Of a stretch of DNA of 64,000 nucleotides, positions 25,197 to 59,043 are shown piece by piece. The notes under the pieces are model-generated. The model saw only the letters and a list, made by a program, of their open reading frames with translations, was not told the DNA's origin and ran no database searches. Location: IMG/VR virus record IMGVR_UViG_3300027759_000067, positions 1-64,000 of that record. One strand, 5' to 3'. Numbering within the stretch: the first letter of the stretch is position 1; each line of letters starts with the position of its first letter. Made by a program: the position numbers and the translations under genes. This stretch comes from a virus.

Positions 25197-26262
25197 TTTA
25201 GGATTGCAGGTTCTTACAGACACTGGATGGAGTAATTTTGAAGGATTACTACTCAAAGGATTTAGAAAAACTGTTGAGGTAAAAACACAAACTCGATCTA
25301 TTATCTGTACACCCGATCATAAATTCTTTGACAAACAATTTAACCCAATTGAGGCTAAAAAATTAAAACCAGGATCGAGAATAAAAAACAATTTAGGAAT
25401 TGATCAAGTAGTTTCTATTACGTTAAAAAATACAGAACCTGTCTACGACTTATATAATGTTGAAAAAAATCATAGATTTTATGCTAACGATATATTAGTA
25501 AAAAATTGTGAATTCTTGGTATTTGATGAAACATTGATCAACAGTATGAAATTAGCCACTTTAGATGGTAGCAAACCTATAATGAATATGGGTGAAGCAC
25601 GTTGGTATAAAAAGATTAACCCGCAATCAACTTATCTTGTTAGTCTCGATCCAAGTTTAGGCACAGGAGGAGATCCTGCTGCTATACAAGTTTTAGAAAT
25701 ACCCAGTTTTGAGCAAGTAGCAGAATGGCAGCATAATCTAACAGTTATACAAAGTCAAGTACGTATAATGCGTGATATTTGTACCTACATTAATGACGAA
25801 TGTACCAACAGAGGAGCAACATCCAGCATATACTACAGTGTAGAAAACAATAATATAGGTGAAGCTGCATTAGTTGCTATCAACGAAATTGGTGAAGAAA
25901 GCATCCCTGGATTGTTCCTCAGTGAACCTATTAAGAAAGGTCATGTACGTAGATATCGCAAGGGATTTAACACCACACATTCTGTTAAAATCAACGCCTG
26001 TGCCAAGCTAAAATACTTAATTGAAAGCGATAGATTAAAGATACATTCTCGTGCTTTTATCAGTGAATTAAAGACATATGTGGCAAAAGGACTGAGTTTT
26101 GAAGCTAAAGTAGGCGCACATGATGACCTTGTTAGTGCTATGTTGCTGGTAATTCGTATGACATTAGTACTGCAAGATTGGGATCCTGCTATCTACGATA
26201 GGATGCGTGAGGAGCGTGAGGACGAGTTTATCATGCCCATGCCCATCTATATTAGTTCCTAA
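25174..26262 (+). CDS. gp17: Split-intein C fragment fused to terminase large subunit C-terminal nuclease part
   Basis: A 362-residue protein. The first 111 residues are Int-C: LQVLTDTGWSNFEGLLLKG, block B SIICTPDHKFFDKQF, KLKPGSRIKN and block F NHRFYANDILVKN. The C-extein starts at Cys (25507): CEFLVFDETLINSMKLATLDG, then the nuclease motif LVSLDPSLGTGGDPAAIQ and the late acidic GAHDDLVSAMLL. The frame is open from ATG 25120. GTG at 25174 is preferred because GAAGGA (25161-25166) is well placed and the ATG has no such site. The residue before the terminal Asn is Lys, not the usual His. The nuclease cuts concatemeric DNA at headful. Confidence 0.85.
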   Translation: MEELLKNSLGLQVLTDTGWSNFEGLLLKGFRKTVEVKTQTRSIICTPDHKFFDKQFNPIEAKKLKPGSRIKNNLGIDQVVSITLKNTEPVYDLYNVEKNHRFYANDILVKNCEFLVFDETLINSMKLATLDGSKPIMNMGEARWYKKINPQSTYLVSLDPSLGTGGDPAAIQVLEIPSFEQVAEWQHNLTVIQSQVRIMRDICTYINDECTNRGATSSIYYSVENNNIGEAALVAINEIGEESIPGLFLSEPIKKGHVRRYRKGFNTTHSVKINACAKLKYLIESDRLKIHSRAFISELKTYVAKGLSFEAKVGAHDDLVSAMLLVIRMTLVLQDWDPAIYDRMREEREDEFIMPMPIYISS

Positions 26263-48771: not shown

Positions 48772-48800
48772 ATTATAACAGGGACCTAAGTCCCTGTCAA
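48772..48800 (-). promoter_or_regulatory. Early sigma70 promoter (AAA+ operon)
   Basis: TTGACA, 17-bp spacer GGGACTTAGGTCCCTGT, TATAAT, read leftward. With the flanking CA the spacer forms the palindrome CAGGGACTTAGGTCCCTG. Confidence 0.9.
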
Positions 48801-48803
48801 TGT

Positions 48804-49130
48804 TCAGTCTGCCCGACCGCCTGCGTAGGCTGTGACACCCAGTCGTTCTTTCAGGATCCGAGCGGCAGCTGAGGCACCCGCTTCTTTCACTGACATGCTC
48901 TGGGTACCGTGGCCACTTGGGTTCCACCATTGGAGACCGCCACCGTAGGCTTTGCTGAAGCCTGCTTTAATCAATGCGCGGCCCAGTTTGGTTGAGCCTT
49001 TCTCGTAGACGTTAACCCAAGCAAAGCCGCAGTACCAGTCCTCACCGTGTTGGGTGATGTGGTCTTGTGCGGCTTGGGCAGCGGCTTGTTGGGCTTCTGC
49101 TACAGCGGCGTTGACGATTGCTTGTTCCAT
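48804..49130 (-). CDS. Conserved early protein, Ala-rich
   Basis: A 108-residue protein: an Ala/Gln-rich N-terminal helix (VAEAQQAAAQAAQDH), then DWYCGFAWVNVYEKGSTKLGRALIKAGFSKAYGGGLQWWNPSG. This conserved aromatic/glycine core recurs in unrelated phages as a protein of unknown role. It has its own early promoter and the leader ACACACTAAGGAGC. Confidence 0.6.
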   Translation of the reverse strand: MEQAIVNAAVAEAQQAAAQAAQDHITQHGEDWYCGFAWVNVYEKGSTKLGRALIKAGFSKAYGGGLQWWNPSGHGTQSMSVKEAGASAAARILKERLGVTAYAGGRAD

Positions 49131-49157
49131 TTAGTGCTCCTTAGTGTGTAAGTAAGT

Positions 49158-49186
49158 ATTATAACAGGGAGTTGCCTCCCTGTCAA
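49158..49186 (-). promoter_or_regulatory. Early sigma70 promoter
   Basis: TTGACA, spacer GGGAGGCAACTCCCTGT (palindromic GGGAG/CTCCC), TATAAT. The same 29 bp occur at 56770-56798. Confidence 0.92.
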
Positions 49187-49190
49187 CCTT

Positions 49191-49454
49191 TTAGTTGTTG
49201 TTTATTGTGTACAATGCATTATCTAAATATTCTGAGATAATTTGCTTTTTGTAAGTGTTAACAATAGTTTCTTGTAGTGTTTCGCAAGCGCACAATAAGT
49301 TAGTGTCGCTGTCGTCTTCTTCTAGCACATAATTAATAACTTGCAGCATTGTTTTACCCGTACGCACTGCTTCGGCAAATACAATTGCTTCGCAATTGTT
49401 AACGTTGTTATTTACAGCGTGGAATCCGTTTGCAGTTTGTGTTACTTGTAACAT
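49191..49454 (-). CDS. Small early protein in an A+T-rich block
   Basis: An 87-residue protein rich in Asn (NNNVNN, ending TINNN). AAAGGAA precedes the ATG. No motif. It belongs to a run of four small genes (49191-50339) with lower G+C than the rest of the early region. Confidence 0.5.
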   Translation of the reverse strand: MLQVTQTANGFHAVNNNVNNCEAIVFAEAVRTGKTMLQVINYVLEEDDSDTNLLCACETLQETIVNTYKKQIISEYLDNALYTINNN

Positions 49455-49482
49455 AGTGTTTCCTTTTAGTGTTTAAGTGTGT

Positions 49483-49511
49483 ATTATAACGCTAAAGGGC
49501 TCCGCTGTCAA
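49483..49511 (-). promoter_or_regulatory. Early sigma70 promoter
   Basis: TTGACA, spacer GCGGAGCCCTTTAGCGT, TATAAT. Confidence 0.9.
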
Positions 49512-49543
49512 CCTGTGTTGCAAAGCCCTTTCACTTTACTCTA

Positions 49544-49822
49544 CTATTTGTTATAACTTGCGTTAATGCGTAAGTATGTACGCCCCCCGCTCCTAAAACC
49601 CATGCAGCCTGTGTAATTGCTTGTTGTTGCTTTAACTCTGTTAGTAAAGCCCACAAGTGTAAACAAGTCTTGTATCTCTTTTACTAATGCGTGTTTATCC
49701 GCATAGTTAATGTCCCATGTTAGCAAGCGTGTATTATTAACACCTTTGTCTGTGTATTTTGCACTGTCCCCTACAATATTGTTTACAATATTGCGTATTG
49801 CTTGCGTATCCGCTAGTTGCAT
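49544..49822 (-). CDS. Small early protein in an A+T-rich block
   Basis: A 92-residue mixed alpha/beta protein (NNIVGDSAKYTDKGVNNTRLLTWDINYADKHAL, TSNYTGCMGFRSGGRTYLRIN). AAAGGAGC lies before the ATG. Function unknown. Confidence 0.55.
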   Translation of the reverse strand: MQLADTQAIRNIVNNIVGDSAKYTDKGVNNTRLLTWDINYADKHALVKEIQDLFTLVGFTNRVKATTSNYTGCMGFRSGGRTYLRINASYNK

Positions 49823-49850
49823 AAAAAGCTCCTTTAGTGTTTAAGTGTGT

Positions 49851-49879
49851 ATTATAGCAGTTTAGTCTGCTGTTGTCAA
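49851..49879 (-). promoter_or_regulatory. Early sigma70 promoter
   Basis: TTGACA, spacer ACAGCAGACTAAACTGC (AGCAG/CTGCT palindrome, its last T being the first base of the -10 box), TATAAT. Confidence 0.9.
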
Positions 49880-50038
49880 GTCTTTTTGTGTAAAGTTAAA
49901 CAGCTCGTTGTAACAAGCAACCAGCTGCTCGTCTGTCATTTTGTAGCAAGCACTATTAGTGTCGTATTCCATTTTAATATTATACAACATTTCCCAACGT
50001 GTTAGTCCGTTGCTTAATTTACGTTTTGTAAAATACAT
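49862..50038 (-). CDS. Small early protein
   Basis: A 58-residue protein from the ATG at 50038 (MYFTKRKLSNGLTRWEMLYNI), chosen because AAGGAG lies 7 nt upstream; the frame is open to 50074. Its start region lies just after the upstream gene. No motif. Confidence 0.5.
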   Translation of the reverse strand: MYFTKRKLSNGLTRWEMLYNIKMEYDTNSACYKMTDEQLVACYNELFNFTQKDLTTAD

Positions 50039-50048
50039 ATAGTTCTCC

Positions 50049-50339
50049 TTATTTGCAGCAATATTTGTTAGCACTAATTAGTGCGTTATCTTCTATGTAC
50101 AATAGCACACTAATGTAAAATTCGCGTACTAATGTATCTTGCATAATAATTGCGTTATGCAATGCTAGTACATTTTTGTCTGTGTTAAACTGCACTAGTG
50201 CGTTAACGTTATATGCCACGTCCTCTGCAAACATAGTGTCTATGTCCTCTTCGTTAGCAAATACGTTAATATATTCCTCTGTTGTTTTAAGTAATAGCAC
50301 GTTAATTTGTGCAATGTGTTTTGCTGTTAGTTTTTGCAT
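50049..50339 (-). CDS. Small early protein in an A+T-rich block
   Basis: A 96-residue helical, acidic protein (EEYINVFANEEDIDTMFAEDVAYNVNALVQF) ending NKYCCK. AAAAGGAA precedes the ATG. Function unknown. Confidence 0.55.
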   Translation of the reverse strand: MQKLTAKHIAQINVLLLKTTEEYINVFANEEDIDTMFAEDVAYNVNALVQFNTDKNVLALHNAIIMQDTLVREFYISVLLYIEDNALISANKYCCK

Positions 50340-50364
50340 ATAGTTCCTTTTTGTTTATGTGTGT

Positions 50365-50393
50365 ATTATAACGCAGAATAGCACACTTGTCAA
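50365..50393 (-). promoter_or_regulatory. Early sigma70 promoter
   Basis: TTGACA, spacer AGTGTGCTATTCTGCGT, TATAAT. A hairpin-forming repeat (AATAACC/GGTTATT, 50403-50430) lies on its upstream side at the end of the next gene. Confidence 0.88.
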
Positions 50394-50425
50394 GTGTGCT
50401 GTTAATAACCCTGCTAGCGGTAAGG

Positions 50426-50596
50426 TTATTTCTTGGTGGCTGGGGCCTGCTGTATCTGAACGCAGGTGCCTTTGAATTGCTGTTTCTGTAGGTCCTGAAG
50501 AGCCGCCTGGCATATGGCCTGCTCCTGGAACTGCCCTATGTAGGTCACGCTGGGTGCTGTGGTTCCTATGCCAATGAGTGCTATTGCCCAGAACAT
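50426..50596 (-). CDS. 56-residue exported- or membrane-type micro-protein
   Basis: A short gene: MFWAIALIGIGTTAPSVTYIG, then QFQEQAICQAALQDLQKQQFKGTCVQIQQAPATKK and stop. The hydrophobic N-terminus could be a signal anchor; two Cys in the remainder might form a disulfide outside the cytoplasm. GGAGG lies 8 nt before the ATG, 1 nt after the upstream stop. Function unknown. Confidence 0.5.
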   Translation of the reverse strand: MFWAIALIGIGTTAPSVTYIGQFQEQAICQAALQDLQKQQFKGTCVQIQQAPATKK

Positions 50597-50597
50597 A

Positions 50598-50816
50598 TCA
50601 CGCCTCCTTCTTGGTTAGGGTGGACTTGAACAGCAGGGCGAACAGGAACTGGAGTCCCCAGGCCTGTAGCCAACCTATCTCTCGTGTGCCCTCTACAGCA
50701 GGTACAAGGCATTGGTTCCACAGTTCCATCACCGGCCAAGCCAGTAGGAAGGATAGGAACAGTAGGGTAGCGATACTGGCTACGATTGCACCTAATGCTA
50801 CGATTGCGTCTTTCAT
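50598..50816 (-). CDS. Small membrane protein
   Basis: A 72-residue protein with one long hydrophobic stretch (IVALGAIVASIATLLFLSFLLAW) and a second weaker one (WLQAWGLQFLFALLF), ending in Lys (KSTLTKKEA). AAGAGG precedes the ATG. Probably an inner-membrane host-takeover protein. Confidence 0.6.
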   Translation of the reverse strand: MKDAIVALGAIVASIATLLFLSFLLAWPVMELWNQCLVPAVEGTREIGWLQAWGLQFLFALLFKSTLTKKEA

Positions 50817-50825
50817 AACAACCTC

Positions 50826-50927
50826 TTACAAAAATGTGTACACAATAGCAATCCCTATAAAGTACAGGAAAAGTGATCCTACTGCTACAATAGCGGCAAA
50901 CTCGAGTGTTTCTTTTAACAGTTGCAT
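50826..50927 (-). CDS. 33-residue single-span membrane peptide
   Basis: A short gene: MQLLKETLEFAAIVAVGSLF followed by LYFIGIAIVYTFL. Nearly all of it after residue 9 is hydrophobic. TAGGAGATAG precedes the ATG and a consensus promoter lies just upstream. It heads an operon with the next two genes. Function unknown. Confidence 0.55.
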   Translation of the reverse strand: MQLLKETLEFAAIVAVGSLFLYFIGIAIVYTFL

Positions 50928-50946
50928 TTCTATCTCCTAAAATTGT

Positions 50947-50975
50947 ATTATAGCATCAAATGCGGAATTGGTCAA
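50947..50975 (-). promoter_or_regulatory. Early sigma70 promoter
   Basis: TTGACC, spacer AATTCCGCATTTGATGC, TATAAT; the extended -10 TGC is present. Confidence 0.88.
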
Positions 50976-51174
50976 GCACTTCTTTAGCCTCGTCTACAGT
51001 GGTGATCTCATCAACGAATGCTGCCAGCATCATTTGGATCAGTGTACGGCACTCGAGTCGTTCTGGCCGGGGCAAGGTAGCGATGAATGCCTCCACTGCC
51101 GCGTATTCCTCAAGACCCCACATAATGTCGCACAGGGCCTTCTGTTTAGCGTTGAGTCCAGTGATAGTGATCAT
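50956..51174 (-). CDS. Conserved small early protein
   Basis: A 72-residue protein from the ATG at 51174 (MITITGLNAKQKALCDIMWGL), which overlaps the upstream micro-gene stop (TAATG). GGAG precedes it; the TTG at 51186 is rejected. The acidic helical C-terminus (DEITTVDEAKEVLDQF) recurs in many phage small proteins of unknown role. Confidence 0.6.
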   Translation of the reverse strand: MITITGLNAKQKALCDIMWGLEEYAAVEAFIATLPRPERLECRTLIQMMLAAFVDEITTVDEAKEVLDQFRI

Positions 51175-51263
51175 TACATTCTCCAAAAGTAGATTACAAA
51201 GGGTCCGCCGATTAGGGCTGCGACTGCGGTAGCTTGTGCTAGGTCGATTAGTGCTTGTTTCAT
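51174..51263 (-). CDS. 29-residue membrane micro-peptide, possibly leaderless
   Basis: MKQALIDLAQATAVAALIGG then PFVIYFWRM and stop. The ATG is 6 nt after the TATAAT box, about where transcription should start, so no ribosome site is possible. The stop is fused to the next gene's start (TAATG), arguing that it is really translated. Confidence 0.5.
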   Translation of the reverse strand: MKQALIDLAQATAVAALIGGPFVIYFWRM

Positions 51264-51269
51264 GTATGT

Positions 51270-51298
51270 ATTATAGCCGAGAACTTGGGTCTCGTCAA
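51270..51298 (-). promoter_or_regulatory. Early sigma70 promoter
   Basis: TTGACG, spacer AGACCCAAGTTCTCGGC, TATAAT. CGAGA and TTCTCG form an imperfect palindrome. Confidence 0.88.
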
Positions 51299-51600
51299 CC
51301 TATTTCTAAGACTTTATTCATATCGATGTTGAAGCCGGCAGCATGGACGTAGACTGCTCGTAGTGAAGATTGGGCAAATCGTTGCTCTACCCGTTGTATA
51401 GCCTGGTTCAATGAAGGGGCGCGAACCCGGTATGTATCCTGATTGCCGTCGGCCCACTCTACAGTGACTAGGTGCCAGGTGTTGTTCTCTGCGACTGCAT
51501 ACAGACCGTTGACCAATAGGACCAACACTCCGGTGATGAGTGTCTCACTATGGGCCAGGCTGGACCCTAGCATCAGGGCTAGGATTACGGCCTTCTTCAT
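51295..51600 (-). CDS. Predicted secreted (periplasmic) early protein
   Basis: A 101-residue protein starting with a classical signal peptide: MKKAVILALMLGSSLAHS with a likely cut before ETL. The mature part is beta-rich (TWHLVTVEWADGNQDTYRVRAP, LRAVYVHAAGF). A phage early protein sent to the periplasm could alter the envelope or block superinfection; this is inference. Its ATG overlaps the upstream stop (ATGA). Confidence 0.6.
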   Translation of the reverse strand: MKKAVILALMLGSSLAHSETLITGVLVLLVNGLYAVAENNTWHLVTVEWADGNQDTYRVRAPSLNQAIQRVEQRFAQSSLRAVYVHAAGFNIDMNKVLEIG

Positions 51601-51818
51601 ACAGCGCCCACCTTTCGGAACAGGTCCATAAAGGCACCGTTGATCTCGTCCATCTCTTCTTGCTCGACATAGAAGTCTGAGCGTGGATCATAGTACTGAC
51701 CTTCCTTGGGATCGTAGTAGAGAACACGTCCGGAGAAGTTGAATGGGCCTTCTAAGCCCTTGCGTGGACCGTAATTGTCACGCATGTTGTCCACAGTGTT
51801 CAAAACGCGATATCCCAT
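51597..51818 (-). CDS. Conserved small early protein
   Basis: A 73-residue protein, MGYRVLNTVDNMRDNYGPRKGLEGPFNFSGRVLYYDPKEGQYYDPRSDFYV, with a very regular DPKEG/DPRSD motif. Similar proteins occur in phages of diverse hosts. Function unknown. The leader has CTAAGGAGC. Confidence 0.62.
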   Translation of the reverse strand: MGYRVLNTVDNMRDNYGPRKGLEGPFNFSGRVLYYDPKEGQYYDPRSDFYVEQEEMDEINGAFMDLFRKVGAV

Positions 51819-51845
51819 CTGGTGCTCCTTAGTGTGTAAGTATGT

Positions 51846-51874
51846 ATTATAGCCTCAGATGGGCTGCTTGTCAA
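51846..51874 (-). promoter_or_regulatory. Early sigma70 promoter
   Basis: TTGACA, spacer AGCAGCCCATCTGAGGC (AGCC/GGCT palindrome), TATAAT. Confidence 0.9.
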
Positions 51875-51875
51875 C

Positions 51876-52103
51876 CTATTTTTTGGTAATTTCTTCAAGT
51901 TTCTCTTTGTACTCTAGTTCGGACACTTGCATCAAGTAGACTTCACGCAGAGCATAAACGGTTCCAATCAGGAGCATAGTGACGAAGAATGCCTCACCGC
52001 CGAAGAAGTAGACAAAGGTCAGTGCTGCTAGACCACCGAGCACAGCAGAGCCAAAGAGTTTAGCCACGTGTACAGCGGCCTTTTGTTTCAATGTAAGCAT
52101 CAT
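51876..52103 (-). CDS. Small membrane protein
   Basis: A 75-residue protein with two hydrophobic segments (AKLFGSAVLGGLAALTFVYFFGG and AFFVTMLLIGTVYALREVYL) and a charged cytoplasmic tail (EYKEKLEEITKK). AAAAGGAAAA precedes the double ATG. Unknown role. Confidence 0.6.
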   Translation of the reverse strand: MMLTLKQKAAVHVAKLFGSAVLGGLAALTFVYFFGGEAFFVTMLLIGTVYALREVYLMQVSELEYKEKLEEITKK

Positions 52104-52125
52104 AGTATTTTCCTTTTAAAAATGT

Positions 52126-52154
52126 ATTATAGCATCAAGTTGACACCCGGTCAA
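52126..52154 (-). promoter_or_regulatory. Early sigma70 promoter
   Basis: TTGACC, spacer GGGTGTCAACTTGATGC, TATAAT. TTGAC...GTCAA forms an inverted repeat over the -35 box. Confidence 0.85.
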
Positions 52155-52500
52155 CCTTAAAATAGCCGTAAGGTAGGCCAACCAGGTAGCACAGGAACTC
52201 GTCGTCCCCATTGCTGCCCTCTGCTTCGTGGATCCAACGCAGGGCCATCTCACGGTCCTTAGCACCGCAGGCTAGGATAGATTGGACACGCATCTCAAAG
52301 GCATGTGCTGCCTCGTGCTCGGCGATCTTGCGTTCTTGATCGTTCTTGACAATCTCGTTCTGCAGGAAGTCAAACTCCCGGTTGAACTTGGACTCATCCC
52401 AGAGGTGTGTGCTGATGCCACGTGGGCGGAAACCGTAGGCATCCTTGTACATATCCCAGAAGATGCTTTGGAGTTCTTCCATGCGGGTCATTGTTTCCAT
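52135..52500 (-). CDS. Conserved early protein, two possible starts
   Basis: A 121-residue helical protein from METMTRMEEL (ATG 52500, with TGGAGC upstream). An in-frame ATG at 52527 lies 6 nt after the TATAAT box and would add nine residues (MNSNTLEHT) if used as a leaderless start. The core MYKDAYGFRPRGISTHLWDES and the end CGAKDREMALRWIHEAEG are a recurrent phage family of unknown role. Confidence 0.62.
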   Translation of the reverse strand: METMTRMEELQSIFWDMYKDAYGFRPRGISTHLWDESKFNREFDFLQNEIVKNDQERKIAEHEAAHAFEMRVQSILACGAKDREMALRWIHEAEGSNGDDEFLCYLVGLPYGYFKVDRVST

Positions 52501-52533
52501 AGTGTGCTCCAGTGTGTTGCTGTTCATGTGTGT

Positions 52534-52562
52534 ATTATAGCAGGAAACAATGCCCTTGTCAA
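52534..52562 (-). promoter_or_regulatory. Early sigma70 promoter
   Basis: TTGACA, spacer AGGGCATTGTTTCCTGC, TATAAT; extended -10 TGC. Confidence 0.9.
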
Positions 52563-52573
52563 CCAAAGGGTCT

Positions 52574-52807
52574 TTACAGATTCTCACCAGAGATTGTATC
52601 AATGGCACCAGTGTAGACCGCAACGACGCCGTTGCCTTCCTCAAGCCAGCCATTTATGTTCCAGACGTCACGATGTCGATTGTAGGATTCCACCCACATG
52701 AGTGCATCCTCACGGGTGTCGAACTCTTCCTCTCCGAGCACCTTGTGATCATTCACATGACCAGCATAGATAGGGTAGATTTGAACATTGTGTACGATTG
52801 CCATCAT
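52574..52807 (-). CDS. Small early protein behind a structured leader
   Basis: A 77-residue protein (or 76 from the second ATG): MMAIVHNVQIYPIYAGHVNDHKVLGEEEFDTREDALMWVESYNRH, beta-alpha in character. It is the only early gene here with a leader of over 200 nt. GGAGC directly follows the 3' arm of the leader's closing helix, so access of ribosomes may be controlled. Function unknown. Confidence 0.58.
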   Translation of the reverse strand: MMAIVHNVQIYPIYAGHVNDHKVLGEEEFDTREDALMWVESYNRHRDVWNINGWLEEGNGVVAVYTGAIDTISGENL

Positions 52808-52813
52808 GTGCTC

Positions 52814-53025
52814 CAGTTAGGAAAAAGTTAGAGGAACTTTGCTGATCAATTCTGAGCTAGCTACTCTCAGATCAATCGCCGTCATTACTGCCTGCCTATT
52901 TCGTCTGCTTCTCCTTGCGGATTGCCATCTTGTAAGTGGAGGAGTAGCCTGCTAAGGCGGGGCTCAAACCCATAATCCCATCACTCACCTAACGATGCAG
53001 GTAACCTCTAACTCTTTCCTAACTG
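52814..53025 (-). ncRNA. Structured 5' leader RNA closed by a 21-bp helix
   Basis: Transcribed leftward from the promoter at 53037-53065. The 5' arm (plus 53025-53005) and 3' arm (52834-52814) pair over 21 bp; the only non-Watson-Crick pair is G-U. Inside, further helices can be drawn: ACCTGC with GCAGGC; GGG with CCC around TTTGAG; CTCCT with AGGAG; and TGATC/CTGAG with CTCAG/GATCA. The ribosome site GGAGC starts at the foot of the closing helix and the ATG follows. The layout resembles a riboswitch or other cis-acting RNA. I do not recognise a known class. Confidence 0.6.
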
Positions 53026-53036
53026 TCTATGCTTGT

Positions 53037-53065
53037 ATTATAACGCACATAGACAGCCTTGTCAA
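53037..53065 (-). promoter_or_regulatory. Early sigma70 promoter of the structured leader
   Basis: TTGACA, spacer AGGCTGTCTATGTGCGT, TATAAT. The -10 box lies within a perfect 9-bp inverted repeat (CATAGACAG at 53048-53056 with CTGTCTATG at 53023-53031). Confidence 0.9.
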
Positions 53066-53069
53066 CCTT

Positions 53070-53312
53070 TTATTCGTCTCCGCCCCAATCTTTTTTCTCT
53101 CCAAACTCTTCATTGTACTCATAGCCTGCGGTGTAGGCTGTGATCTCCGCTGCTGTCATATCCTTCAAACCAATGCGTGGTGTTGAGTAGGTATCGCCCA
53201 CATAGTAGTGTGGATCATATCTACGATTGTAATGGCTGTCGGCACTGCCGCGATCCCAAGGGCCACCGTGACGTTGATCGTAGTATGCTGAACGTGTTGC
53301 TTCTGCCATCAT
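53070..53312 (-). CDS. Conserved small early protein
   Basis: An 80-residue polar protein, MMAEATRSAYYDQRHGGPWDRGSADSHYNRRYDPHYYVGDTY, then MTAAEITAYTAGYEYNEEFGEKKDWG. This Tyr/Asp/Arg-rich family recurs in many phages of aquatic bacteria; function unknown. GGAGC lies upstream of the ATG. Confidence 0.62.
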   Translation of the reverse strand: MMAEATRSAYYDQRHGGPWDRGSADSHYNRRYDPHYYVGDTYSTPRIGLKDMTAAEITAYTAGYEYNEEFGEKKDWGGDE

Positions 53313-53333
53313 ATCTCTTGCTCCTAAAATTGT

Positions 53334-53362
53334 ATTATAGCACCGTTTGAATAACCTGTCAA
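53334..53362 (-). promoter_or_regulatory. Early sigma70 promoter
   Basis: TTGACA, spacer GGTTATTCAAACGGTGC, TATAAT; extended -10 TGC. A GTCAACC/GGTTGAC repeat spans the -35 side. Confidence 0.88.
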
Positions 53363-53393
53363 CCTCTAAGGTCTTTGGTTGACCAGAATAGGT

Positions 53394-53483
53394 GAACCTC
53401 GTATACTTTGCGGCATACGAGGTTCTGGGGGTTGCCTGAAGACACTACCCTTCAGGGCTTGTGTCTGCTACGCGACAGCAGAC
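53394..53483 (-). other. Three tandem perfect stem-loops between early genes
   Basis: Inverted repeats: GAACCTCGTAT/ATACGAGGTTC (53394-53404 and 53415-53425, 11 bp), CCTGAAG/CTTCAGG (53435-53441, 53450-53456) and GTCTGCT/AGCAGAC (53463-53469, 53477-53483). They fill the 3' region of the winged-helix gene. No T tract follows, so they may be an RNA-stabilising 3' end, a processing site or a small RNA. Confidence 0.55.
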
Positions 53484-53496
53484 TTTGGAGCGTTCT

Positions 53497-53772
53497 TTAG
53501 ACTAGGCCAAGAGCCATAGCGCGGTAACCAGCTGCAATCAACTTGCGAGTAGGTTGTCCGATTTCGTATTCGGTAACTTGAACGTGGTTGCCAGCGGTAC
53601 GGGTGTTAGCGTACACCGCAAATCCTGCTTGGCGGATACGGCTGACTTCAGCTGAAACGTTCTTGATGCCAAAACGCTTCTCAGCTTGGCTTGCGGTTAC
53701 CTTATCACCACTCTTAAGAGCAGTGAAGAGCTTATGGGTCTTAGTGCCCTGATTGATGTTATAAGTTTGCAT
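53497..53772 (-). CDS. Winged-helix-like early regulator
   Basis: A 91-residue protein: HKLFTALKSGDKVTASQAEKRFGIKNVSAEVSRIRQAGFAVYANTR. The helix-turn-helix core and a following beta wing fit a DNA-binding winged helix, a common small phage family. No consensus promoter precedes it, only TATAAC at 53791-53796 and an AAGGAAAA ribosome site. It could be a regulator of phage or host genes. Confidence 0.62.
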   Translation of the reverse strand: MQTYNINQGTKTHKLFTALKSGDKVTASQAEKRFGIKNVSAEVSRIRQAGFAVYANTRTAGNHVQVTEYEIGQPTRKLIAAGYRAMALGLV

Positions 53773-53822
53773 TTTTGTTTTCCTTAATGTTATACTGTTT
53801 GCACAGTTACAACAATATTACA

Positions 53823-54125
53823 TTATTCCTTGATGAGAGTCAAGTGATTTTGGAGATCTTTCCTGGCTCGCTCTTTACCTTCTTCCAGGTACTTCTCAAC
53901 ATCCCTTAACGTTTTGGTATTACCAAACTCTCGATCAGTGTAGTACTCAATGAGTCTACGTTGGATCATAGTCAGCAAGTCACCGTTCTCGTCGTCGATG
54001 ATGAAACGTACAGGGCAGCGGCTCCAAGATCTACGTGCTTGGAACTCTGCAAACCACTCACGATGCTGCTTGTTATAAGCATCGAATACAATCCAGGGTC
54101 TACCATAAAAGGCTAATCTACTCAT
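53823..54125 (-). CDS. Conserved early protein
   Basis: A 100-residue basic/acidic protein: MSRLAFYGRPWIVFDAYNKQHREWFAEFQARRSWSRCPVRFIIDDENGDLLTMIQRRLIEYYTDREF. It looks like a compact folded domain followed by a helix. Its ribosome site follows a 17-bp stem-loop at 54144-54200. No function recognised. Confidence 0.6.
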   Translation of the reverse strand: MSRLAFYGRPWIVFDAYNKQHREWFAEFQARRSWSRCPVRFIIDDENGDLLTMIQRRLIEYYTDREFGNTKTLRDVEKYLEEGKERARKDLQNHLTLIKE

Positions 54126-54143
54126 TGTGTTGCTCCTTAAGTG

Positions 54144-54215
54144 TCTTAGTTAAACAGAGTACTCATTTCCTTCGTCGCTCGGCACTCTGTTTAACTAAGA
54201 GGGGCATATAGCCCC
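54144..54215 (-). repeat. 17-bp perfect inverted repeat plus second hairpin before an early gene
   Basis: TCTTAGTTAAACAGAGT (54144-54160) pairs perfectly with 54184-54200 around a 23-nt loop. GGGGC-ATATA-GCCCC follows at 54201-54215. Reading leftward the big hairpin ends 6 nt before AAGGAGC of the next gene. It may act as a processing or translation-control element, since this gene has no own promoter. Confidence 0.65.
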
Positions 54216-54231
54216 AATACCCCGCTATGGG

Positions 54232-54624
54232 TTAGAAGGGTGCTTCTTCCAATGTTGCATCAACCTTAGGAGCCTTGGCCTTGGCAGCAACTGCACGGGC
54301 TTTGATAGCATCCATTGTAGGAGTGCTCTTGGCCTTAGGAGCTGCTTTGGCCTTAACAGCCTTAACAGCCCGGACAGCAGGAGTACGCTTCTCCAGGCCT
54401 TCTTCAAGAGCGGCGCGGATGTTAGCGTTGCCGTTGTCGAAGTTGATGCTGATCAGGAACTGGATAGCAGCCGCTTTGGTCATTGGCTCTTTGAGCTCGA
54501 TCAGATCAATGTCGGAACTTCCGGTCTTGGCCAGAACCTTGACACGCATTTGGTCATTAGCAAAGCGAGCCTTGATAACACCATTACGAGTAGAAACACC
54601 TGCAAATTTAAAAGTCTTTTCCAT
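54232..54624 (-). CDS. Early protein with Ala/Lys-rich histone-like tail
   Basis: A 130-residue protein from the ATG at 54624 (MEKTFKFAGVSTRNGVIKARFAND). The first 70 residues form a compact beta/alpha domain. The remainder is a low-complexity basic tail (VRAVKAVKAKAAPKAKSTPTMDAIKARAVAAKAKAPK) with an acidic end. Such tails bind DNA or RNA in bacterial histone-like proteins. It may be a nucleoid-associated takeover factor; inference. The ORF upstream of 54624 is promoter sequence. Confidence 0.6.
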   Translation of the reverse strand: MEKTFKFAGVSTRNGVIKARFANDQMRVKVLAKTGSSDIDLIELKEPMTKAAAIQFLISINFDNGNANIRAALEEGLEKRTPAVRAVKAVKAKAAPKAKSTPTMDAIKARAVAAKAKAPKVDATLEEAPF

Positions 54625-54682
54625 AATATACCTCTTTCTATGTGTGTGTTGTATGGATTGCACTATTGCTTTCCATACGTTA

Positions 54683-54711
54683 ATTATACAACGGTTTGGG
54701 TCCGTTGTCAA
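54683..54711 (-). promoter_or_regulatory. Early sigma70 promoter
   Basis: TTGACA, spacer ACGGACCCAAACCGTTG, TATAAT. CAACGG/CCGTTG is a perfect 6-bp palindrome. Confidence 0.9.
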
Positions 54712-54724
54712 CCTCTTTTTGGCA

Positions 54725-54907
54725 TTAGGAGTTGAAAGTTTCGTATGGGCTCATCTCCTCTTGTGGGTTTTCTGCCACAAAGTTGCTTTCAATCCAACCA
54801 TAGACGATCTCTATGGGGCACTCCAGTTGAACTGCAATACTGCGGGCACTGAACCCTGCAATGTACATCTGCTCAATATCGTAACTTAGATCTGCCATCT
54901 TACTCAT
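54725..54907 (-). CDS. Small helix-turn-helix-like protein
   Basis: A 60-residue protein: YDIEQMYIAGFSARSIAVQLECPIEIVYGWIES resembles a helix-turn-helix of the sigma/resolvase kind, with GFSARSIAVQL as helices two and three. The ATG overlaps the upstream gene's end by 8 bp. It may bind DNA. Confidence 0.55.
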   Translation of the reverse strand: MSKMADLSYDIEQMYIAGFSARSIAVQLECPIEIVYGWIESNFVAENPQEEMSPYETFNS

Positions 54908-55112
54908 CGTAGGCCTCCTCGCCCATTTCGGTTACTGTTTCTTCAAACACCCGAACATCAACGATGCGGGCTGTTTGTTCCTCATTGCTAACACCTTCAA
55001 ACGCCTCTCGGAAACTTTGGCAATCTGCCAAGAAGTTGAAAACATCCTCTCGGCCCCAAGTGCCCGGCACTTCCAACACCTGTACCAGTTCTGTGCGTAC
55101 TGTGACTTTCAT
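54900..55112 (-). CDS. Small acidic early protein
   Basis: A 70-residue protein, MKVTVRTELVQVLEVPGTWGREDVFNFLADCQSFREAFEGV, alpha/beta with an acidic end. It overlaps both neighbours by a few bases, so it is in an operon with the GTRSTIALE family gene. Function unknown. Confidence 0.58.
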   Translation of the reverse strand: MKVTVRTELVQVLEVPGTWGREDVFNFLADCQSFREAFEGVSNEEQTARIVDVRVFEETVTEMGEEAYDE

Positions 55113-55585
55113 GCTGTTTCCTTTGTTTCAACTAAAGCCAACACCAACAATTCATAAGCAGCATCGTGGCACTTCACATACCAGTTGCCGTCTTTGCGCA
55201 GGATGTACTCGTATTCCTCATACTGGTGATGAGCCAAGTAGTCCTGAAAGTCAACGAACTGCTCTTTGGTCAAGTCTTCGCCACGGTCACGTGCGTAGAA
55301 AGTAGTATAGCCTGCTTCTCTAGCCTTGTCAACTTCTTTCTGGATCTTAGCCTTCTTCACAATGTCAGTCTCATTGTAAGCAGGACCAAAGGGATGCTTC
55401 TTGCCGATGACCTTGCCCAGCGAACTGATGCCGCCCATGTCGATCAAGTCGCGCAGTTTGAACGGATCGCTGTAATGCTCAGCGAGGATCTTGCCGTTGT
55501 GCTCCAAGTAACCGTCCCAGTGGCAGTAGATTTGCTCTACTGTGCCATCTGCAAACTCTAGTGCGATAGTGCTGCGTGTACCCAT
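55109..55585 (-). CDS. GTRSTIALE family conserved protein
   Basis: A 158-residue protein opening MGTRSTIALEFADGTVEQIYCHWDGYLEHNGKILAEHY, a strongly conserved pattern seen in many phages and some bacteria without a known role. LRDLIDMGGISSLGK follows, and ELLVLALVETKETA ends it. It is first in an operon with two smaller genes, led by a consensus promoter and CTAAGGAGC. Confidence 0.68.
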   Translation of the reverse strand: MGTRSTIALEFADGTVEQIYCHWDGYLEHNGKILAEHYSDPFKLRDLIDMGGISSLGKVIGKKHPFGPAYNETDIVKKAKIQKEVDKAREAGYTTFYARDRGEDLTKEQFVDFQDYLAHHQYEEYEYILRKDGNWYVKCHDAAYELLVLALVETKETA

Positions 55586-55614
55586 TTGCTCTGCTCCTTA
55601 GTGTGTAAGCGTTA

Positions 55615-55643
55615 ATTATAGCACCGAAGTGCTGTCCTGTCAA
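55615..55643 (-). promoter_or_regulatory. Early sigma70 promoter
   Basis: TTGACA, spacer GGACAGCACTTCGGTGC (AGCAC/GTGCT palindrome with TTCG loop), TATAAT. Confidence 0.9.
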
Positions 55644-55647
55644 CCAA

Positions 55648-55845
55648 TTAGCGATTGGCAAACTCGCAGTCGGCACCCTCGGGGCCAACCTTCACTTCGT
55701 CATAAAAAACAATCTCATGCCCGAAGTCCTCACCTTCCAACACTGCCATGCGAGCCTTAGCCAGCTCAGCAGTGGGATACACTCCGTAGATGATGCTCTC
55801 AGGAGCGCCACAGTCCTCAGCACGAACAATAAAAATAGAAGTCAT
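55648..55845 (-). CDS. Small early protein
   Basis: A 65-residue protein, MTSIFIVRAEDCGAPESIIYGVYPTAELAKARMAVLEGEDFGHEIVFYDEVKVG, a plain beta-alpha-beta fold with a recurrent phage pattern. Function unknown. Confidence 0.58.
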   Translation of the reverse strand: MTSIFIVRAEDCGAPESIIYGVYPTAELAKARMAVLEGEDFGHEIVFYDEVKVGPEGADCEFANR

Positions 55846-55873
55846 TTTGTTTCCTTAGTGTGTGTAAGTGTTA

Positions 55874-55902
55874 ATTATAACAAGGTTTTACCACCTTGTC
55901 AA
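55874..55902 (-). promoter_or_regulatory. Early sigma70 promoter (GGTAAAACC class)
   Basis: TTGACA, spacer AGGTGGTAAAACCTTGT, TATAAT. CAAGGT/ACCTTG is a perfect palindrome. Confidence 0.9.
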
Positions 55903-55907
55903 CCTCT

Positions 55908-56192
55908 TTATGCAACGTCTACCCAAATATTGCGACCGTACGTGTTCTCTACAACAAAGCCCGGGCTGCAAGGGCAAGAGCAACCTGCAAACTGCGACCA
56001 TTTTACCTTTGTGTCGGCACTCCAACCCAATTGGCTAAACAACTTGGGCAACACCTCTTTACGGTAGAACGTATGCGGGCGCTGTCGGCGATTCATTATG
56101 TTTTCCATAACTGTCTCGCCCACTGGGCTAACATATATGCGGGTCTTGCTGTAACGACGCTCTTGCTCACCTACTTGTACTGTGATTTCCAT
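55908..56192 (-). CDS. Small early protein with CSCPCSPG motif
   Basis: A 94-residue protein. WSQFAGCSCPCSPGFVVENTYGRNIWVDV contains a tight C-X-C-X-C cluster of unknown purpose, possibly metal binding. The N-terminal half is basic. A recurrent phage family. TAAGGAGC upstream. Confidence 0.6.
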   Translation of the reverse strand: MEITVQVGEQERRYSKTRIYVSPVGETVMENIMNRRQRPHTFYRKEVLPKLFSQLGWSADTKVKWSQFAGCSCPCSPGFVVENTYGRNIWVDVA

Positions 56193-56221
56193 TTGCTCTG
56201 CTCCTTAGTGTGTAAGCGTTA

Positions 56222-56250
56222 ATTATACAATGGTTTTACCACTTTGTCAA
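56222..56250 (-). promoter_or_regulatory. Early sigma70 promoter (GGTAAAACC class)
   Basis: TTGACA, spacer AAGTGGTAAAACCATTG, TATAAT. Confidence 0.9.
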
Positions 56251-56253
56251 CCG

Positions 56254-56469
56254 TTAAGCATAAAAGGTTGTTGTAAATTCACAACGGCTGTAGATCATTT
56301 CCCGTACTGCGGTGTCGTTGATCTCACCAAATTGATCACTCTTCTGATCGCCGATGAATCGCATAATGCTCATAGTCTGCTTCCAATCAAGCCCTGCAGC
56401 CTTGGCCAGCTCTACAATCTTGTCTGCAACCAAGTTGCCTTGGTCTGTGAACATATCATAATCTTTCAT
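56254..56469 (-). CDS. Small early protein
   Basis: A 71-residue protein from the ATG at 56469 (MKDYDMFTDQGNLVADKIVELAKAAGLDWKQTM), preceded by GGAG inside the end of the upstream gene. Helical; a recurrent phage family without known role. The frame above 56469 overlaps the upstream gene and is not used. Confidence 0.6.
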   Translation of the reverse strand: MKDYDMFTDQGNLVADKIVELAKAAGLDWKQTMSIMRFIGDQKSDQFGEINDTAVREMIYSRCEFTTTFYA

Positions 56470-56470
56470 A

Positions 56471-56743
56471 TCACTCTCCAGTGTAAAGTTCGTAGATGAC
56501 CCGTGCTGCTCCGGGATCCAACTCATTGAGCTGACGGGCAGCAGTGATCAACTTGCGATGACGGGCTTGCAACTCTGCACCACGCAGTTCGCCATCACAG
56601 GTTAGGTTCTCTGGGCTTAGATCGCAGTCAATGGTCTCTGCGATGCGCTGCCGGTCTGTGGCGTTGTCCAGGCTTAGAGGTGCCTGCTTAAAGATGGCAC
56701 GCCACCGGTTCTTCTCGGCAACATAGTTTGTCAATGCGTTCAT
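56471..56743 (-). CDS. Small early protein, helical
   Basis: A 90-residue protein (MNALTNYVAEKNRWRAIFKQAPLSLDNATDRQRIAETIDCDLSPENLTCDGELRGAELQARHRKL). Mostly helical and charged. Co-transcribed with the next gene. Function unknown. Confidence 0.6.
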   Translation of the reverse strand: MNALTNYVAEKNRWRAIFKQAPLSLDNATDRQRIAETIDCDLSPENLTCDGELRGAELQARHRKLITAARQLNELDPGAARVIYELYTGE

Positions 56744-56769
56744 GATAGCTCCTTAGTGTGTAAGCGTGT

Positions 56770-56798
56770 ATTATAACAGGGAGTTGCCTCCCTGTCAA
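56770..56798 (-). promoter_or_regulatory. Early sigma70 promoter, identical to the one at 49158
   Basis: TTGACA, spacer GGGAGGCAACTCCCTGT, TATAAT; all 29 bp equal the promoter at 49158-49186. Confidence 0.92.
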
Positions 56799-56800
56799 CC

Positions 56801-57085
56801 TCACATTGAGTGATATCGTTCCATGCTTGGGTCGCATGGGCCACCGCGGTCTTCACGGCGGATCATAACTTCCTTGCCCGTAAGTATGTTCTTTACACCG
56901 ACCAGCTGCTGCCCGTTGAACTTCTCTACGATGTTGATGAACTCTTTCTGCTTGCGTTTGGGCAAGAGGCTGAGCATATCTACTGCCAATTGCGTGGCAT
57001 AGCCTGCTGCGAATGCAGGTTCGTGATCTGCATAAAGTTGACTCAGTGCGTCATTGAGTGCTACTTGGTTGTCTGTACGAAACAT
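56801..57085 (-). CDS. Conserved small early protein
   Basis: A 94-residue protein: ALNDALSQLYADHEPAFAAGYATQLAVDMLSLLPKRKQKEFINIVEKFNGQQLVGVKNILTGKEVMIRRED. A helical pair then a beta end; a recurrent phage family with no known role. CTAAGGAGC upstream. Confidence 0.62.
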   Translation of the reverse strand: MFRTDNQVALNDALSQLYADHEPAFAAGYATQLAVDMLSLLPKRKQKEFINIVEKFNGQQLVGVKNILTGKEVMIRREDRGGPCDPSMERYHSM

Positions 57086-57111
57086 TCTAGCTCCTTAGTG
57101 TTTAAGCAGTA

Positions 57112-57140
57112 ATTATACAACGGTTTTACCAACTTGTCAA
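57112..57140 (-). promoter_or_regulatory. Early sigma70 promoter (GGTAAAACC class)
   Basis: TTGACA, spacer AGTTGGTAAAACCGTTG, TATAAT. Confidence 0.9.
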
Positions 57141-57160
57141 CCCCTAAATCTGTTGTCTTT

Positions 57161-57391
57161 TTACAACGGAAGTGGTACTCCTAATAACCCTATAGCATAT
57201 ATGGCTAATAGTACTGCATTGACAATGACCAAGTTCATCTCCCGTATCCGCATAGCCCAGATCATATACACTAGAGCACCTAGGTTCAATAGCATAATGT
57301 TCAAGGGATCTATACGCAAACTGGTACATAGGGCACCGGCAATGACCAAAGCCATGCCAGTCCACTTCAATATGTTATTAAGCAAGAGCAT
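57161..57391 (-). CDS. Three-span small membrane protein
   Basis: A 76-residue protein with three hydrophobic segments (WTGMALVIAGALCTSL, NIMLLNLGALVYMIWAM and VIVNAVLLAIYAIGLLGV). The half-transporter-like size recalls SemiSWEET or PnuC fragments, but no signature is seen. It overlaps the upstream gene by 14 bp and ends an operon of three. Confidence 0.62.
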   Translation of the reverse strand: MLLLNNILKWTGMALVIAGALCTSLRIDPLNIMLLNLGALVYMIWAMRIREMNLVIVNAVLLAIYAIGLLGVPLPL

Positions 57392-57749
57392 TCTCCCGAT
57401 CCACTTGCTCGCTCAATGCAGCGAACTTCTTGCTTAGTCGATATACTTGAGCCTTGGCTTCTTTCATAGCCTCGTCAATGAAGTCCTCGGCAGTCCCGTC
57501 ACTAAGGACTTCGCGGGCATCTTCGTATAAGCATCCCCCAAGGTAGGCACTGCCCAACTCGAGCCCTTCGACGAGTACACGTACCCGCAACATGAACCAT
57601 TCGTAGGTCCCGTTGTCAATCTTACGGAGGATCTCGTCGATGTTGTCGTCTTCGAAATGATCCCTGGGGTTAATATCTTCATAGGTCTTATCCACAATTA
57701 CGGTAAAGCCATCACGCTCAAAACGCTCAATTAGATCATAGTGTTGCAT
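57378..57749 (-). CDS. Conserved acidic early protein
   Basis: A 123-residue protein: YDLIERFERDGFTVIVDKTYEDINPRDHFEDDNIDEILRKIDNGTYEWFMLRVRVLVEGLELGSAYLGGC. A recurrent phage family; the strongly conserved YEWFMLRVRV strand suggests a stable fold. Its ATG overlaps the upstream stop by one base. Function unknown. Confidence 0.65.
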   Translation of the reverse strand: MQHYDLIERFERDGFTVIVDKTYEDINPRDHFEDDNIDEILRKIDNGTYEWFMLRVRVLVEGLELGSAYLGGCLYEDAREVLSDGTAEDFIDEAMKEAKAQVYRLSKKFAALSEQVDRENALA

Positions 57750-58036
57750 TATGCCAATTCCTTTTCAGTTAATGTAAGCATATTCGCAGGCACCCTCCAC
57801 AGGCCCATGTTAGTCTTAACTGTGACGAACTTGATAGCAATCTTCTCTACAGTGCCCTGCATGACTCGGCCTGTCTTAGAACTAGTGAAACTGACCTCGT
57901 CGCCGTAGCGTAGGCTTCGCTTGTTCTTCTCCATAAGGCGTGCTCGTGCAAACTTGACAGCATCTATGATCGATGTCAATTCATCGTTGGTAAAGCCGCT
58001 TTGCAAGATTGCGGTGTTGATCTGCGTAATGTTCAT
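57749..58036 (-). CDS. Conserved early protein with KOW/SH3-like barrel
   Basis: A 95-residue protein: a helical N-terminus (INTAILQSGFTNDELTSIIDAVKFARARLM), then RYGDEVSFTSSKTGRVMQGTVEKIAIKFVTVKTNMGLWRVPANML. The second part looks like a small KOW/SH3-like barrel. The family is common in phages of very different hosts. A nucleic-acid or ribosome-related role is possible. First gene of a three-gene operon. Confidence 0.65.
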   Translation of the reverse strand: MNITQINTAILQSGFTNDELTSIIDAVKFARARLMEKNKRSLRYGDEVSFTSSKTGRVMQGTVEKIAIKFVTVKTNMGLWRVPANMLTLTEKELA

Positions 58037-58063
58037 CTCATGCTCCTTAGTGTGTAAGTATGT

Positions 58064-58092
58064 ATTATAACGCCGTTAGGCACTCTTGTCAA
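58064..58092 (-). promoter_or_regulatory. Early sigma70 promoter
   Basis: TTGACA, spacer AGAGTGCCTAACGGCGT, TATAAT. Confidence 0.9.
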
Positions 58093-58334
58093 CCTAATAC
58101 CACTACACGACGAACGGACTCTAGGTAGTCGCCAGTCTCTTCGTCGTAGCAGTCCTCGTCGTCAACCAGCTTGTCCATGCGGTGGTACTCACTGAACTCT
58201 ACAACACCTTCACTTACCTCGCCTACCTTGGGCGCTACAGTAGTGCGCCAGTGGTCGCCGTAACTGTAGGCAAAGTGTACTTCAGCGTTGGGGTCCAAAT
58301 ACTCTAGCTGCTCTATTAGTTGAAATACTTGCAT
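58089..58334 (-). CDS. Small early protein
   Basis: An 81-residue protein, MQVFQLIEQLEYLDPNAEVHFAYSYGDHWRTTVAPKVGEV, with an acidic second half. The LIEQLE.LDPNAEV start is a common phage pattern. The end of the gene touches the next promoter's -35 box. Function unknown. Confidence 0.62.
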   Translation of the reverse strand: MQVFQLIEQLEYLDPNAEVHFAYSYGDHWRTTVAPKVGEVSEGVVEFSEYHRMDKLVDDEDCYDEETGDYLESVRRVVVLG

Positions 58335-58360
58335 GACTGCTCCTTAGTGTGTAAGTGCTA

Positions 58361-58389
58361 ATTATAGCGTGGTTTTACCAATGTGTCAA
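58361..58389 (-). promoter_or_regulatory. Early sigma70 promoter (GGTAAAACC class)
   Basis: TTGACA, spacer CATTGGTAAAACCACGC, TATAAT. Confidence 0.9.
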
Positions 58390-58400
58390 CCAAAGACCCT

Positions 58401-58619
58401 TTAGCAGTCAGGGTCAAAGTCTGCCCACTCTTGCTCTTCATCGGGCTGACCGTCGTAGTCCTCGTCGTCTTCATCAAAACGCTCGCTCAACTCGTTGGCA
58501 TCTAGCAGGTCTTCAACTTCGCTTTCGCTCATGAAAGCGATGCACATGTCAACCACTTGCTCGTGAGTGATAACACCCTGATCTAGCAAGTCGTATAGTC
58601 TCTCTCTAGCTTTAGTCAT
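58401..58619 (-). CDS. Small acidic early protein
   Basis: A 72-residue protein: a helical N-terminus (ARERLYDLLDQGVITHEQVVDMCIAFMSESEVEDLLDANEL) and a highly acidic tail (DEDDEDYDGQPDEEQEWADFDPDC). Acidic tails of this sort occur in DNA-mimic or polymerase-binding phage proteins; the role here is unknown. A recurrent phage family. Confidence 0.6.
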   Translation of the reverse strand: MTKARERLYDLLDQGVITHEQVVDMCIAFMSESEVEDLLDANELSERFDEDDEDYDGQPDEEQEWADFDPDC

Positions 58620-58643
58620 CTCTGCTCCTTAGTGTATGCGTGT

Positions 58644-58672
58644 ATTATAGCAGTCTTTTACTGATTTGTCAA
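58644..58672 (-). promoter_or_regulatory. Early sigma70 promoter overlapping a gene end
   Basis: TTGACA, spacer AATCAGTAAAAGACTGC (CAGT/ACTG palindrome), TATAAT. The -35 side lies in the last codons of the GIY-YIG-like gene. Confidence 0.88.
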
Positions 58673-59008
58673 GTCACCGCGAATGTCCGTGTTCAGCATA
58701 GGGTTAATCAAACGTCGTAGCTCAACTTCCCGCCGGTGAGCAGCAGCCTTACCACGTATGATCTCATGCACACGGATCTCAATCTCCGACTTGTCAGATA
58801 ACTCACGCAAAGCCACGCACAATGCCCAGTCCTTGTTCTCAGTCTTAGCACGGTAGAAATGCTTGTTAGCACGTACACGCACGCTCTTGAGTACAGTGCT
58901 CTCAGTCTTGGCAGTGACACCAATGTAGTTCATGCCATTGACTACGAGCTCATAGATGATGTGATTGCGATCTACACGTTTCTTGCGAGTGTTAAGTTCT
59001 TTGTTCAT
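58658..59008 (-). CDS. GIY-YIG-like nuclease-fold early protein
   Basis: A 116-residue protein from the ATG at 59008 (MNKELNTRKKRVDRNHIIYELVVNGMNYIGVTAKT). The Y-E-L...NYIG pair and RVRANKHFYRA, VHEIIRGKAAAHRREVELRRLINPMLNTD match the GIY-YIG fold order (catalytic Arg and Glu present). The ATG is 6 nt after TATAAT, so the mRNA may be leaderless. It could be a homing or host-DNA-cutting nuclease. First gene of the early region nearest the gene-free stretch. Confidence 0.6.
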   Translation of the reverse strand: MNKELNTRKKRVDRNHIIYELVVNGMNYIGVTAKTESTVLKSVRVRANKHFYRAKTENKDWALCVALRELSDKSEIEIRVHEIIRGKAAAHRREVELRRLINPMLNTDIRGDLTNQ

Positions 59009-59014
59009 GTGTGT

Positions 59015-59043
59015 ATTATAGCGTGGTTTTACCATTCTGTCAA
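59015..59043 (-). promoter_or_regulatory. Early sigma70 promoter (GGTAAAACC class)
   Basis: TTGACA, spacer GAATGGTAAAACCACGC, TATAAT. It is the rightmost early promoter. Confidence 0.9.

Follow-up and report, generated by a model that had tools for sequence, protein, structure and literature searches.

A structured RNA with a conserved three-way junction, probably a stand-alone gene of large freshwater phages

What is the long and almost perfectly closed RNA hairpin that precedes a small early gene in this viral DNA: a leader that controls the gene, or an RNA that works independently of it? The window, by which we mean the whole 64,000-nt stretch that was analysed, is part of an 89.7-kb virus record. 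Among the best 12 matches of the window's UvsX protein, the closest come from phages of 337-490 kb, such as GAP32, CBB and Phosso, at 60-68% identity, which makes it likely that the record is one piece of a large phage genome. A tRNA search of the window came up empty, as did an Rfam search of the remaining 25.7 kb of the record. On the minus strand, at 52814-53025, a first-pass annotation had proposed a 212-nt RNA bounded by near-perfect 21-nt arms, and both the RNA and its arms are borne out, with a closing helix of 21 bp that contains one G-U pair. Its parts, named according to the fold and the three core types (I to III) set out below, are as follows.

53037..53065, minus strand: predicted sigma-70-type promoter of the RNA, an exact match to TTGACA-N17-TATAAT
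53005..53025, minus strand: 5' arm of the closing stalk (P1), paired over 21 bp with 52814-52834, one G-U
52835..53004, minus strand: core of 170 nt; identity 100% to L018, 79% to L022 and 54-60% to types II and III
53002..53004, minus strand: J1/2, UUA, present in nine of nine compared sequences
52997..53001, minus strand: 5' strand of P2, CCUGC, covarying with 52891-52895
52891..52895, minus strand: 3' strand of P2, GCAGG, covarying with 52997-53001
52880..52890, minus strand: J2/4, CAGUAAUGACG, with GUAAUGA in nine of nine compared sequences
52841..52879, minus strand: P4 hairpin, with two double-sided pair changes within type I and five over types I and II
52814..52834, minus strand: 3' arm of the closing stalk (P1), ending in the G that begins the ribosome site GGAGC
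52574..52807, minus strand: 77-aa gene, downstream neighbour of the RNA and not a part of it; relatives of the gene exist without the RNA

On the minus strand of the window, the closing helix is alone in having 16 bp or more and spanning an interior of 100-260 nt; in 40 first-order Markov resamples, such helices averaged 0.125 and never exceeded one. Folded as a whole, the RNA reaches -80.8 kcal/mol (z -3.76), a value equalled in one of 200 shuffles. Stripped of its long arms, the core folds no more stably than shuffled sequence (108 of 200 equally good; z 0.25), and the thermodynamic signal thus comes from the arms.

The RNA had also been assigned one of a set of consensus early promoters, and we find the match at 53037-53065 to be perfect, one of 19 exact TTGACA-N17-TATAAT matches in the window where 0.19 would be expected. 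Two companion claims fared less well. The ribosome site GGAGC, described as the first free sequence after the helix, does directly adjoin it, but the helix ends on its first G (52814); and the leaders of the other early genes, all given as 20-30 nt, include one that would run to about 50 nt, downstream of the promoter at 54683-54711, provided that translation starts at the ATG of MEKTF. The 19 exact promoters span 48772-59043 of the window on the minus strand, many of them with a leader like ACACRCTTACACACTAAGGAGCA. Hairpins within the promoter spacer, of 8 bp at 48772, 49158 and 56770 and of 7 bp at 54683 and 55874, are rarer in shuffles, and most other promoters of the 19 have a spacer free of such a hairpin.

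The RNA and its relatives occur in 13 records in total, a lower bound because searches lose diverged members, and one drawn from a choice among the loci found, mostly longer ones. They fall into three core types, with 53-60% identity between types: type I in G000, G001, G002, G003, G013, G014 and G015, type II in G004, G005, G009 and G012 (where the copy is cut), and type III in G052 and G058. A scan with 20 letters returned six loci, three of them at a new place (L020-L022), where promoter-like sites precede a type I RNA and tRNA-Glu follows it; its arms are quite different in sequence but pair here too. Between L020 and L021/L022, the stretch from promoter through RNA to tRNA-Glu is 98.6% identical over 497 bp, as against 68.5% for a 2.5-kb stretch elsewhere. 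The 364-kb record G009 carries the RNA at the same place before tRNA-Glu, with a 23-nt stalk that is 96% complementary; blastn aligns only the start of its core. The type I covariance model built with the P2 fold (R2) matches it over its full length at 29.4 bits with filters off.

The same model matches G004 at 37.2 bits and G005 at 40.9 bits. These are the records of L007 and L008, in which no such RNA precedes the 77-aa gene. The G005 copy sits elsewhere, between TTGACT-17-TATAAT and a second promoter match, TTGACA-17-TACAAT, that follows a few bases behind the stalk, and G004 is arranged alike; read from these predicted promoters, the RNA is here a unit of its own, running from promoter through RNA to next promoter, and not the leader of a gene. 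No terminator was found behind the RNA in the stand-alone copy. A type II model (R3) then finds the cut G012 copy and the third type in G052 and G058, before tRNA-Glu, at 25.6 and 21.5 bits, respectively, with filters off. Detection is reciprocal, the type I model finding type II at 29-41 bits and the type II model finding types I and III at 21-26 bits.

The reach of these searches depended on the model. R1, built on an RNAalifold structure, missed types II and III and matched in seven of 50 records (six real, one weak), none of 50, three of 50 (all weak and partial) and one of 14 (a control). R2, which found type II, matched in five of 50 records, and R3 in five of 50 and none of six. Pre-filtered searches with R2 missed G009 and those with R3 missed G000 and G015, all of which match with filters off, so that absences are weak evidence. 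No match was found with R1 on 12 named phages or with R3 on six of them, or for the RNA against plasmids. A blastn comparison of the RNA with 50,697 phage records yielded no hits, short matches attributable to chance, or hits to the tRNA-Glu beside it. Exact-letter scans returned type I records and chance matches only (four patterns, viral collection) and one chance match (one pattern, genome contigs). The narrow family that these scans suggested is refuted by the models that find types II and III. An origin of the first two lineages in unrelated phages was likewise discarded, since the data suggest that both are pieces of related large phages.

With these relatives in hand, we can return to the reading proposed at the outset, in which the RNA is a cis-acting riboswitch or structured leader of the 77-aa gene whose helix hides or exposes the ribosome site upon a signal. 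The RNA does lie directly before the ribosome site, its position before the gene is kept in three close relatives, and its conserved three-way junction is of a kind that occurs in some aptamers. We nonetheless consider this reading highly unlikely. Thirteen loci encode the 77-aa protein, and the RNA precedes the gene in three (L004, L005, where it is cut at the contig end, and L006) and is absent there in ten, some of which are near-identical copies; two of the ten carry the RNA elsewhere in the genome. The other copies of the RNA precede tRNA-Glu or stand between two promoters with no gene of their own, so the RNA does not stay with one controlled gene or gene class as a riboswitch would. The closing helix, at 21-27 bp, is very stable, and in silico folds of a longer transcript leave the ribosome site mostly paired whether the stalk forms or not. 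The 77-aa product matches no family in Pfam or PHROGs, and four neighbouring proteins gave one helix-turn-helix match in Pfam. Control of the 77-aa gene cannot, then, be the shared function of the RNA. The other option raised by the first-pass annotation, a processed stable RNA, fits these observations as a candidate.

A fold common to all three core types consists of the stalk, P2 and a three-way junction of P1, P2 and P4, with GGUUACC, GUAAUGA and UUCC in this order in nine of nine compared sequences; the inner fold beyond these helices varies from type to type. P2 appears as CCUGC/GCAGG, CCUAC/GUAGG, CCUAG/CUAGG, CCUAGU/ACUGGG and CCAGAC/GUCUGG. In an alignment made without structure (A3, in which the L006 row counts as gaps in the arms), double-sided changes affect 14 of 61 pairs, a count that none of 500 shuffles reached. 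A rival fold without P2 reaches 13 of 61 on type I, and type I alone therefore cannot decide between the two; types II and III decide for P2, because P2 covaries across them. Alignments fitted to the model, and hence biased towards it, show double-sided changes in 25 of 61 pairs with 98.6% of cells paired (A5; none of 500 shuffles, slid controls 1-4 pairs) and in 19 of 61 with 95.1% paired (A8; none of 500 shuffles, one sequence breaking three P2 pairs). All of these shuffle controls overstate the covariation, since the lineages are few and related. In a MAFFT alignment (A6), G009 is displaced by two in its 3' strand of P2. Two further ideas were set aside: a kissing-loop dimer through the UAGCUA palindrome in the P4 loop of type I, where types II and III have other letters, and a short peptide readable in the core of the window, which differs in L022.

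The arms behave differently from the core. When 17 positions of the arms are set side by side in the window and L022, nine differ on both strands of the helix but still pair, one differs on a single side and still pairs, one is broken and six are the same. Arm changes without compensation, which the first-pass annotation had named as grounds for refutation, are thus the exception, the change being mostly compensated; in L020 two extra positions lack compensation, and the stalk of type III is short, only about 10 bp, and interrupted. The stalk alone might be what matters, as a hairpin for processing, or for insulating one transcript from another, around a core of mere filler, and the long arms at most sites and their drift with compensation would suit such a hairpin. 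Yet the core is conserved more than the arms, the junction letters are kept across 53-60% identity, and type III does with its short stalk, and we accordingly give this explanation very little credence.

A comparison across sites separates the two elements further. The window and G005 have arms that match at 40 of 48 positions around cores of 57% identity, and L022 and G009 have arms that match at 38 of 48 (gapped) around cores of 56% identity, whereas the window and L022, which share a core type at 79%, have arms that agree at 20 of 48 positions ungapped and 24 gapped. Conversely, identical cores (170/170, 184/184 and 185/185) occur within pairs whose arms or flanks differ. From these agreements we infer that the stalk goes with the site and that the core moves or recombines, a pattern seen in four combinations of sequences and not proof of a mechanism. 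A mobile element with terminal inverted repeats was rejected: the arms are not transposon ends, because they are not shared between kinds of site. One tentative reading, possible in our view though less likely than not, is that the RNAs form an exchangeable cassette class of trans-acting phage RNA, in which a core with a fixed three-way junction is swapped while the site keeps its stalk, as if a variable host factor selected the core, for example one of defence or translation to which the junction binds or which it evades.

These phages have other features that deserve mention. The tRNA islands of L021, L022, L324 and L325 hold 22 to 30 tRNA calls, a permuted tmRNA of betaproteobacterial type and GOLLD, and in L021 and L022 ARAGORN assigns one tRNA, with anticodon CUA, to Pyl. 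Tandem promoter-like sites and a stretch AAGTTCGTTAAAAATTT, which we take to resemble boxA of ribosomal RNA operons, lie before the RNA in L020 (~13700-13990), L021 and L325. A second long-armed stretch (TATAGTCAAGCA.CGA / TCGGTGCTTGACTATA) lies between tRNA-Glu and tRNA-Asp in two phages (L339 1141-1290, minus strand; L325 1-156, minus strand) and may be another stalked RNA. On the plus strand of the window, 23563-24486 and 25120-26262 encode a terminase-like protein in two frames, whose inner ends resemble intein ends.

Is the RNA, then, one that is already known? Rfam 15 at gathering scores gives no match in the window, and at E<=10 types I, II and III yield chance-level matches only; the GOLLD covariance model (RF02032) at gathering score matches none of the three types, ROOL gives no match through its Rfam model, and no paper retrieved from open-licence PubMed Central describes the RNA by title or abstract. 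By Rfam's measure it is a new family, of a kind that is known, the structured phage RNA of unexplained function. Passages of PMC12286853 present GOLLD as a structured phage RNA often near tRNA islands, with many members longer than 800 nt, and ROOL as a phage RNA likewise often near tRNA islands, with an example of 659 nt; these passages describe no function for either. Our RNA resembles GOLLD in being structured, phage-borne and found at tRNA islands, and shares that setting with ROOL, but it measures about 210-235 nt, matches neither and also occurs outside tRNA islands. That it is a diverged member of a known family overlooked by the Rfam models seems highly improbable to us. GOLLD does occur in the same islands, and in four of 18 records (G009, of type II; G011; and G014 and G015, of type I), but in L022 it is a separate gene 4.7 kb from the RNA, and the Rfam matches to the RNA stay at chance level.

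Other phage RNAs offer partial likenesses. T4 rnaC and rnaD are annotated as stable RNAs of 139 and 119 nt in the phage tRNA cluster, and in that sense are small RNAs in a similar place; they differ in length and are not matched by the type I model, whose best score on a T4 stretch of 4501 bases is 9.7 bits, at background level and away from both. The manA and wcaG motifs, described in passages of PMC2864571 as structured RNAs of T4-like cyanophages that regulate downstream gene classes, are likewise structured phage RNAs, but ours does not stay with one gene.

Overall, we believe that the RNA is quite probably a stand-alone, trans-acting structured noncoding RNA gene of large freshwater phages, from a family new to Rfam, on the evidence of few independent lineages, three core types and 13 records. 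The same fold occurs at other places without the 77-aa gene, and the RNA therefore looks to have its own job. A general pathway can be sketched. Strong promoter-like sites would drive transcription of the RNA, and the long stalk would be cleaved by RNase III or another RNase specific for double strands, with an additional cut by RNase P where the RNA precedes tRNA-Glu. A stable RNA of about 175-235 nt would thus be released, which may act in trans during host takeover, its junction binding a protein or a ribosome-related partner. In the window, the RNA would merely occupy the leader of a small early gene.

Phage tRNA islands are already known for GOLLD and ROOL, large RNAs of unexplained function, and the RNA described here adds a smaller one in the same setting. 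Its compact, conserved junction is amenable to mutation, pull-down and structure solving, and its natural core types can be compared with one another. If the RNA does act in trans, it would provide a tractable case for the role of structured RNAs in infection.
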